A DNA stretch of 40,593 bases, taken from NCBI GenBank assembly GCA_013359215.1, contig JABWCH010000019.1, positions 1-40,593 of the forward strand. Direction: 5' to 3'. This document shows, piece by piece, positions 9,876 through 14,497 of the stretch. The notes below the pieces were generated by a model. That model saw nothing but the letters and a program-made list of their open reading frames with translations. It was not told where the DNA came from and did no database searches. Every line of letters starts with the position of its first letter. The stretch's first letter is position 1. Both the position numbers and the translations under genes were made by a program. This DNA is from Candidatus Brocadiia bacterium (GTDB lineage: Bacteria; Planctomycetota; Uabimicrobiia; Uabimicrobiales; JABWCH01).

Positions 9876-10091
9876 ATGGAAAAAGAAAAAGAATGCGAAT
9901 TAAAAAAACTTGGCAAAGAAATAAAGCTTGCGAGAATAGCAAATGATTTAGATCAAAAAGAGCTTGGAGACAAGATAGGATATTCGGCTGCTGCTGTTTC
10001 TCATTGGGAGGCGGGGAAAAGAATTCCTTCTTATTTCGCAATAAAAAAAATAGAAGAAACTTTTAAAATAAAGCTTGGAGAAAAAAAATGA
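9876..10091 (+). CDS. Cro-like XRE regulator
   Basis: 71 residues, essentially one helix-turn-helix domain. Its recognition segment AAAVSHWEAGKRIPS is almost the same as that of the divergent repressor (ASAVSQWEAGKKIPS), which implies they bind the same operators. It is the first gene of the PR transcript. Its stop codon overlaps the start of the 1469-residue replication protein (ATGA). Expected role: shut off PRM and tune PL and PR during lytic growth. Confidence 0.88.
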   Translation: MEKEKECELKKLGKEIKLARIANDLDQKELGDKIGYSAAAVSHWEAGKRIPSYFAIKKIEETFKIKLGEKK

Positions 10092-13000: not shown

Positions 13001-14497
13001 AAGATTGCCTGGGATGACCACGAAAAAATAGTTTCGCTGGATAAGCTTTCTAGCAAAAATGTTGAGATGCTTTCAAAAAATTTTGGCATAAGGGTACTTA
13101 GCACGAATGCAAAAGACATGTCTGAATATTTTTTATTTTGCCTGAACCAGAAAGGACTTGTCCATGGTAAATTTGCGTCCAGAAATGGATGGCTAAAAGA
13201 TAAGTTCGTTGTCGGCAACAAAGTTTTTTTTGAGGGAGGATGTGAGCCGATAGACCAAAAAGAGGGCGCGCTGGAAATAGGAGAGTCTGGCAGCGAAGAG
13301 GAATGGAGAAAGCTGATAGTGCAATATTCCGATGATCCGCAAATACAAATCGCGCTGGGCGGGTCACTGGCATCTGTTTTTCTGAATGAATTCTCTTGCG
13401 AGGGAACAGTCCTGCATTTCCACCAGGAAAGCTCTGTCGGAAAAAGCTTTGCAATAAAACTAGCGGCTTCTCTTTGGGGTAAGCCCAGGTCGCTTATACA
13501 GGATTGGTGGGGGACATCTGTTGGGCATGAAACTTATTTTCACTTGATGAACAACCTGCCCGCCTTTTTGGATGATTCGCAAGCAGTAAAAAATCCAGAA
13601 CTCATATTTACGACGGTCTATAACTATGCAAATGGAGTAGGGAAAACAAGAGGCACCAGGGACGTAGAACTGCAAAAACCCAAAAACTGGCGAGGCAATC
13701 TTCTTTCGACTGGAGAGCGCAAAGTAACAGATACGAGCAACTATACAGGGATGCTTGCCAGGGCAATCGAGATATACCGAAAAAAAACAAAAGAAATCTC
13801 GGAAATTGAGTTTCGCAGGATAGAAGAGGTAATATCTAAGAATTATGGATTCGGAACAAGAGCAGTGCAATACTTTTTCCAGCACAGATCGAAGCTAAAA
13901 TCACATTATTATGACATCCTGAAAAGTCTGGAAGAAAGTTTCAAGGTAGAAAGCTACAAGAAAAGAAACCTATCGAAATGGGCAGCGATAATTTTGGGCT
14001 GCCAGGTTATCCATGATATATGGGGAATCCCCTATTCTTATAACGAGATATGGGGAGAGATAAAAAAAATTATGGATGAAGTATCCGTCAAGTCAAGCCA
14101 GGCACTCTATGAGTTTATTCTGGAAACTTTTTACACGAATCCATCCCATTTCGCGAACAAAACCCCAAATGGCTTCACAAGGCCAGTGAATTACGAAACA
14201 ATAGAGCTTTGGGGATGGCACGATGCAAAAATAATATATTTTTACAAGGAAAAGCTCAGGGAGATAATCACGAAAAAAAACTACGCATGGTCACAGCTCT
14301 CTTCCTTGAAAGAGAGCAAGGATAACAGTGAGGATGGAAGCAAGATTGTTACGACAAAAAACAGAGGATATTGCCTTCTTGTTCGGCTAGGCGGGGTTGC
14401 CTATGACATGATCGCAGTAAAAAAACAAGATGAAATCGTAGAAGAAACGAAAAAGGAATCAGCACAAGAAGAAGTACAGCAGAAAATCGCGTTTTGA
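10088..14497 (+). CDS. ParB-like / zinc primase / TOPRIM / DUF927 helicase fusion, replication protein
   Basis: 1469 residues with several recognisable parts. A ParB/Spo0J-type N-terminal domain (ISDLKPHPLN at 8-17, SGHRRFNAA near 53-61, ANIQRQKTAEQVA near 91-103) is followed by a helical, HTH-like region about 150-180. An unassigned Trp-rich domain occupies about 236-370. A long coiled coil runs about 395-610. A CHC2-like zinc finger (C621-x2-H624, C644-x3-C648) and a TOPRIM domain (IIVEGESD with Glu776; EKDKAG with Glu818 and Asp820) form a primase. A DUF927-type helicase follows, with Walker A SSVGKS (Lys1119) and Walker B LDD (1162-1163). The start overlaps the Cro stop and has GGAG inside that gene. 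A repeat-rich likely origin follows directly. The primase-helicase half is a known phage and plasmid design; the ParB front end on it is unusual. Confidence 0.88.
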   Translation: MNQIKYISISDLKPHPLNASIYSDGCDQELLDDIKERGIRSPIEATKSLLIVSGHRRFNAAQMLKLSEVPVIFSDVDENDELAVEEALIKANIQRQKTAEQVAREYARLKEIEKEKARRRMLEAGKSNSGLKSLNGPTVNLPQGIETGESREIAAKKLGISASNAERSAKVIAQIDTLKQQGQIEKAEQLRKTLNEKSVNAAWQQIKPKNEEQEPEKPEEKKREESPRPLKCLCPDWYMENVPAHIKEFFINPILKKRYWIEAQTARKEFPIPGIEWKDLEKFYGNVEAARFFEVKYCSGKAGIPETCYYSPDINQTKTYLSAKIKESKLRKVIVEKNETGRHPFWGEDEKPESVNANADSEEELLLSYMQQVATIKKDEEGPESQESIDTLRDAKLKSCQEENKALREQAKRDHDDYEKFCEEFNALAKKLKQYQDENITLDKRCATLEEEKKALEVKILELVKESETGKAEPVFSPIPPLVYKKVCEENTKLKDQIASMKKKYPQEGYNQATMDEIIAVKNENEKLQEENARLKAEMPAPAVSQESETIKKLEFDNMVLKRQVEDLTLKCEEQRITMSEVMERNVELNEKEEIAVLFMEFLSLFQGVKKGNDGNFSAICPAHEDKTQSLSAKEEDGKIILNCFAGCTCKQICQAIGIKESDLFDQKQDFSEGLTVASLATDKKIPEEFLRAIGLVDMDRERVYSSFGKIGMGGASSAVHIPYWDIRGNPSKRQRIRYDKKAKDGSKWSFSDAAIDAYGEWYIAGYSPDILIIVEGESDCWTLWYHGYQAIGIPGATMKNCVKEDVKKFKRIYLSYEKDKAGKKFVQDISKKLSDIGYSGEIFFFKMPEGAKDPNDLHKISKDFRADFQRILEAAMPSKEIEKEKEAKKPEEIQEENEVEESEIETGEVEREIFSDTNPLISFLIAERGIFRKETIRKRKKTFEEIRLVCADKVKITKRLTDIFGEEAFVKIAWDDHEKIVSLDKLSSKNVEMLSKNFGIRVLSTNAKDMSEYFLFCLNQKGLVHGKFASRNGWLKDKFVVGNKVFFEGGCEPIDQKEGALEIGESGSEEEWRKLIVQYSDDPQIQIALGGSLASVFLNEFSCEGTVLHFHQESSVGKSFAIKLAASLWGKPRSLIQDWWGTSVGHETYFHLMNNLPAFLDDSQAVKNPELIFTTVYNYANGVGKTRGTRDVELQKPKNWRGNLLSTGERKVTDTSNYTGMLARAIEIYRKKTKEISEIEFRRIEEVISKNYGFGTRAVQYFFQHRSKLKSHYYDILKSLEESFKVESYKKRNLSKWAAIILGCQVIHDIWGIPYSYNEIWGEIKKIMDEVSVKSSQALYEFILETFYTNPSHFANKTPNGFTRPVNYETIELWGWHDAKIIYFYKEKLREIITKKNYAWSQLSSLKESKDNSEDGSKIVTTKNRGYCLLVRLGGVAYDMIAVKKQDEIVEETKKESAQEEVQQKIAF

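Follow-up and report, generated by a model that had tools for sequence, protein, structure and literature searches.

A phage gene joining a ParB-like domain to a primase-helicase, with a predicted iteron origin behind it

The Rep protein of SaPI reads, with its C-terminal domain, iterons that are located directly downstream of rep, and the DUF927 protein Cch is related to Rep of SaPIbov1 (PMC7581432). In the ParB protein Spo0J, the substitutions R80A and G77S impair CTP binding, whereas the E78Q and E111Q proteins bind CTP and close without hydrolysis; initial results for Ala/His substitutions at the E78/E111 positions were similar to those for these hydrolysis-dead Gln mutants (PMC8494293). 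A 2025 survey (Kaljevic et al., PMC12704722) counted 9,456 ParB-like domains, and its main text presents fusions of the fold as common. Nowhere does that main text use the words primase, TOPRIM or DUF927. That ParB folds serve as modular clamps is known, and we found no description of a link between them and a replicative helicase-primase.

The stretch of DNA analysed here (the window, 40,593 nucleotides) is one whole contig of a 6.39-Mb draft genome. The first 99 bases of the contig recur at its end, as in assemblies of circular molecules, and because of this terminal overlap we read it as a complete circular phage genome of 40,494 bp. The gene products include terminase, portal, capsid-protease and tape-measure proteins (Pfam, PHROG), and the closest phage relatives by TerL share only 31-32% identity. 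The phage is temperate-looking, and the fused gene lies behind a CI/Cro-like switch. In brief, a CI-like HTH repressor is encoded at 9354-9701 on the minus strand and would control the operon, and a Cro-like HTH gene at 9876-10091 on the plus strand overlaps the ATG of the fused gene (ORF list, domain scans). Neither an integrase nor a ParA was found among the phage proteins scanned, a set without some of the small ORFs, and classical partition is unlikely since no ParA was found. Rfam and tRNA scans gave no matches. The phage also encodes a Ser/Thr protein kinase-like protein at 36682-38040 (Pkinase, 4.7e-19), and a 682-aa ORF at 5508-7556, adjoining the regulatory region, has no credible family in Pfam or PHROG.

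The fused gene is an unbroken ORF of 1469 codons at 10088-14497 on the plus strand, encoding a 1469-aa product (ORF, Pfam, PHROG). The original prediction placed a ParB-like front end, a long coiled coil, a CHC2 zinc finger, a TOPRIM domain and a DUF927 helicase on this one chain with no frame breaks, and that description was borne out. Stop codons close the two other forward frames upstream of the junction between the ParB-coiled coil and the primase-helicase, so the fused frame is coherent. The ParB-primase-helicase fusion is confirmed as real.

Residues 1-215 (10088-10732, plus strand) form a ParB-N NTP-binding fold with a helix-turn-helix, and domain searches, structure prediction and the relatives agree in assigning them to the ParB family. 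Pfam places ParB_N at residues 3-90 (E 5.7e-7, above the gathering cut-off), PHROG matches residues 7-223 to a ParB-like partition nuclease (6e-18), and a PDB sequence search matches residues 1-175 to Spo0J/ParB/Noc/KorB structures. The best 20 PDB matches to the predicted fold of residues 1-215 are all of the ParB family (AF2 and Foldseek), in a model with pLDDT mostly above 90 and lower values at 130-150 and 210-220. The helix-turn-helix is supported by the PHROG search and the AF2 model. Further along the chain, residues 231-360 gave no family match in Pfam or PHROG.

The catalytic Glu pair is not universal in the ParB superfamily, and Noc and PadC vary in it. In the ParB part described here G54 and R57 correspond to G77 and R80 of Spo0J, and the conserved Asn is kept as N92, which completes the CTP-binding residues (GxxR motif and Asn); R56 is also present. 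The catalytic Glu pair is missing. H55 and A91 stand in place of the hydrolysis residues E78 and E111 of Spo0J, and a His at the E78 position is common to all aligned ParB relatives. Since the G77, R80 and Asn equivalents are kept and those of E78 and E111 are His and Ala, we predict nucleotide binding with poor turnover, that is, the ParB part probably binds CTP or another NTP and hydrolyses it poorly. It should be noted that, according to the main text of PMC12704722, the nucleotide specificity of ParB folds is not reliably predictable from sequence.

By sequence, the ParB part is closest to orphan ParB proteins (25-44% identity) from phages, plasmids, cyanobacteria and one archaeal MAG, which stand alone or with DNA methyltransferase-like partners. 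Replication genes are found within a few kb of some of these, namely PrimPol (L128), DnaB (L133), DUF3987 (L124) and DNA polymerase III alpha (L142). In the cyanobacterial plasmids L124 (5962-12597) and L126 (5980-12570) the orphan ParB gene precedes, by about 2-3 kb, a large ORF, which in L124 encodes the DUF3987 protein. These are un-fused neighbours of similar make-up.

A coiled-coil linker occupies residues about 360-601 (11165-11890, plus strand). In the AF2 model it appears as predicted helices at residues 362-378, 383-469, 482-504, 512-538 and 546-601, of which 383-469 is the longest. The CHC2 zinc finger is placed at residues 601-657 (11888-12058, plus strand); its Pfam match at 609-657 is under the cut-off (19.7 vs 24.9 bits), yet its CPxH...C pattern aligns with relatives. 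The TOPRIM domain, residues 773-858 (12404-12661, plus strand), is supported by Pfam (Toprim_2, 4.4e-7), by alignment and by a DnaG fold match, and has the motif VEGESD, with ExD for DxD in all 21 aligned sequences. The CHC2 finger and the TOPRIM acidic residues, by which a DnaG-type primase is recognised, are both present.

The DUF927 helicase of SaPIbov1-Rep type follows at residues 926-1199 (12863-13684, plus strand; Pfam, E 3.5e-40), within a PHROG primase/helicase match at residues 827-1405 (1e-64). Sequence matches in the PDB are to SaPIbov1 Rep (2e-27) and SCCmec Cch (1e-11), and the predicted structure matches the same two proteins (Foldseek E 3e-23 and 5e-19) and the DnaG catalytic domain (2e-6). 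Walker A reads QESSVGKS and lacks the usual first glycine, a variant peculiar to the fused protein among the 21 aligned sequences, and Walker B has DD in place of DE, as it does in SaPI Rep. The C-terminal region, residues 1200-1469 (13685-14494, plus strand), can be aligned with SaPIbov1 Rep to about residue 1430 and would, by analogy, include the iteron-binding part of Rep-type initiators. Residues 600-1469 as a whole are colinear with the primase-helicases of phages FP_Epona and THSA-485A, at 25-27% identity. The same draft genome encodes two other CHC2-TOPRIM proteins (L018, 5269-8328, minus strand; L019, 1838-4939, plus strand) with 41-45% identity to the primase. These are joined to a different helicase-like region with Walker A GSGKS, and have neither a ParB part nor an iteron array.

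An internal Shine-Dalgarno sequence, AAGGAGG (11861-11867), lies 8 bases ahead of an in-frame GTG at residue 597 (11861-11878 for the pair, plus strand). AAGGAGG occurs twice in the window, and the other copy precedes the gene start at 35153. In shuffles of synonymous codons, 1.6% of trials produced such a start close to residue 597, and 7.4% produced one at any place in the ORF. The draft genome's two other CHC2-TOPRIM proteins start at the position equivalent to residue 597, and the product from the internal GTG would be 873 aa long, where unfused primase-helicase relatives are mostly 840-970 aa. Since an in-frame GTG with a full Shine-Dalgarno sequence is found where the homologous unfused primases begin, a second product is suggested, and we think it probable that the GTG also yields a ParB-less primase-helicase of 873 aa. 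Either the site works as an internal start, or it is left over from the gene as it was before the fusion.

The fused protein combines two known kinds of protein and is a singleton, known from one genome. No close full-length relative and no match to the exact junction sequence were found in IMG/VR, and no second ParB-primase-helicase fusion was found among the phages and plasmids searched, in 80 IMG/VR primase loci, in 16 IMG/VR and 10 GTDB ParB loci, or among the DUF927 matches in two sets of genomes (392 from the host phylum, 398 from another). These searches were pattern-based scans of genome samples, in which ParB was checked on fetched loci and other cases were judged by frame length. The fusion appears to be undescribed so far, as the original prediction had supposed; within these searches neither a second case nor a description was found.

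Directly behind the gene, eleven exact copies of TTGAAACT on both strands (14497-14821), within 344 bp after the stop codon, surround an AT-rich core, and we predict a replication origin at 14497-14841. TTGAAACT occurs 13 times in the window against 3.4 expected, and 11 of the 13 fall within 325 bp. An array, defined as at least 4 copies of an 8-mer within 800 bp downstream of the gene, was found behind 25 of 29 ParB-less relatives, in 7 of 409 control segments and at 0 of 19 ParB-family loci, counts that are not independent owing to near-duplicates among the relatives. The arrays behind ParB-less relatives mostly span 240-330 bp and share a recurrent layout, in which two iteron clusters lie around a gap of mostly 100-120 bp and the iteron sequence varies by phage. 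In a strand-and-spacing test of this layout in 14 relatives, the observed score of 8 was matched in no more than 6 of 300 trials with random positions, and L047 and L068 received no support. Since the array follows 25 of 29 ParB-less relatives and is missing at the 19 ParB-family loci, and since iterons are read in SaPI by the C-terminal domain of Rep, we would assign the origin to the primase-helicase half. Most simply, the origin belongs with this half, and the ParB half was added to it and would be unneeded for origin recognition. The compact arrays, two-sided like this one, that follow the DUF927 primase-helicase genes of phages (L023, L024, L046-L080) are likewise predicted origins, and as many phage CHC2-TOPRIM-DUF927 enzymes are linked to an origin of this kind, their origins would be predictable. 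In another part of the window (15965-16056), intergenic and before the terminase genes, there are four direct TTGTCAACACT repeats (one mismatched), in two pairs of 12-bp period that are 57 bp apart; these are possibly an operator or a second protein-binding site.

Recognition of the origin was the role originally proposed for the ParB part; applied to the array found here, it would mean that this part reads the iterons and delivers the primase-helicase there. The iteron core, TGAAAC, equals one half-site of the chromosomal parS consensus, a helix-turn-helix is present in the ParB part, and one gene with its 3' flank encodes both this part and the origin. However, the likeness to parS consists of TGAAAC half-sites within the iterons and is common to ParB-less relatives; in FP_Epona, which lacks a ParB part, the iteron AGGTGAAACA resembles a parS half-site even more closely, and the likeness was therefore discarded as evidence that ParB reads iterons. 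Against the proposal stand the same origin type behind 25 of 29 ParB-less relatives, its absence at 19 ParB-family loci and iteron reading by the C-terminal domain in SaPI Rep (PMC7581432), and we consider it quite unlikely. That the ParB part segregates a plasmid prophage, with partition coupled to replication, is very unlikely: the circular contig with its 99-bp terminal overlap, the CI/Cro-like switch and the failure to find an integrase would suit it, but so would a permuted or replicating phage suit a circular assembly, and ParA was not found among the proteins scanned, some small ORFs being outside that set.

It is unlikely, too, that the ParB part, brought in by domain shuffling, does no more than bind DNA to regulate its own operon and takes no part in replication proper. 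A cro-like gene precedes and overlaps the fused gene, its ParB relatives are shuffled with methyltransferases, and ParB-type gene regulators exist, KorB and VirB being given in the main text of PMC12704722. Nevertheless, a repressor linked covalently to an initiator by a long coiled coil would be an odd design, and translation from the internal start would uncouple the ParB part from the initiator. An artefact, in which a one-base assembly error near 11854-11873 joined a ParB-coiled coil gene to a primase-helicase gene, seems to us very improbable. The full Shine-Dalgarno sequence and GTG at the junction are as expected for a separate downstream gene, a TAG lies in frame +1 at 11871-11873, and the searches gave no second copy of the junction, but the predicted helix 546-601 runs in frame across it and both other frames are closed upstream.

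The account that we favour, and hold to be reasonably probable, is that of a phage initiator in which the Rep part reads the iterons, an accessory nucleotide-binding ParB part serves as clamp or tether, and a ParB-less form is probably made as well. The C-terminal Rep part would bind the TTGAAACT iterons, melt the AT-rich core and load itself, and the TOPRIM part would make primers. The ParB part, an add-on on the long coiled-coil linker, is probably an accessory NTP-dependent clamp or tether; it would dimerise, bind a putative site of its own or slide on the phage DNA, and hold or concentrate the primase-helicase there. Sliding on DNA is possible, and feedback on the operon would be an alternative role. 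Our first choice for the ParB part would thus be a tether or clamp and our second operon regulation, with origin recognition and partition less likely. We tentatively, and with considerable doubt, speculate that a CTP- or NTP-switched clamp, covalently attached to a self-loading replicative helicase, acts as a sliding tether or as a loading/processivity factor, its dose being set by the internal start. On this speculative reading a partition-type clamp would have been built into replication initiation, with a clamp-less form from the internal start, and if the clamp works, the protein would be a natural single-chain test of partition-type sliding in the service of replication start.

Among described systems, the polyvalent proteins (Iyer et al. 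2017, PMC5512222) are likewise multidomain mobile-element proteins with ParB-like or Toprim primase domains. In these, DdrB-type ParB is found in phages and Toprim primases only in conjugative elements, the two not being combined, and the differing ParB type and partners rule out a polyvalent-protein reading. The fusions of the ParB-CTPase fold in the main text of PMC12704722 also show the fold combined, in modular fashion, with other domains of phage proteins; the partners given there are methyltransferases, HNH, DUF3850, DUF4417, CBS and others, whereas here the partner is a primase-helicase. The orphan ParB family (L128 with 43% identity, cyanobacterial plasmids, a groundwater MAG) has ParB-N and HTH like residues 1-215 and shares the GHRR and N..R.KT signatures with the fused protein, but its members are alone or have methyltransferase-like partners, without a primase-helicase or an iteron array. 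Faecalibacterium phage FP_Epona and Thermoanaerobacterium phage THSA-485A have the same CHC2-TOPRIM-DUF927 order and a downstream iteron array, in proteins that begin at the zinc finger, without ParB part or coiled coil. SaPIbov1 Rep (PDB 8tch) and SCCmec Cch (PDB 5dgk) share the DUF927 AAA+ initiator helicase fold with the fused protein, and the SaPI origin resembles the predicted phage origin in having iterons directly downstream of the gene (PMC7581432). The primases of SaPI are of AEP type (PMC7581432), whereas here a DnaG-type primase and a ParB part are carried on the helicase chain.
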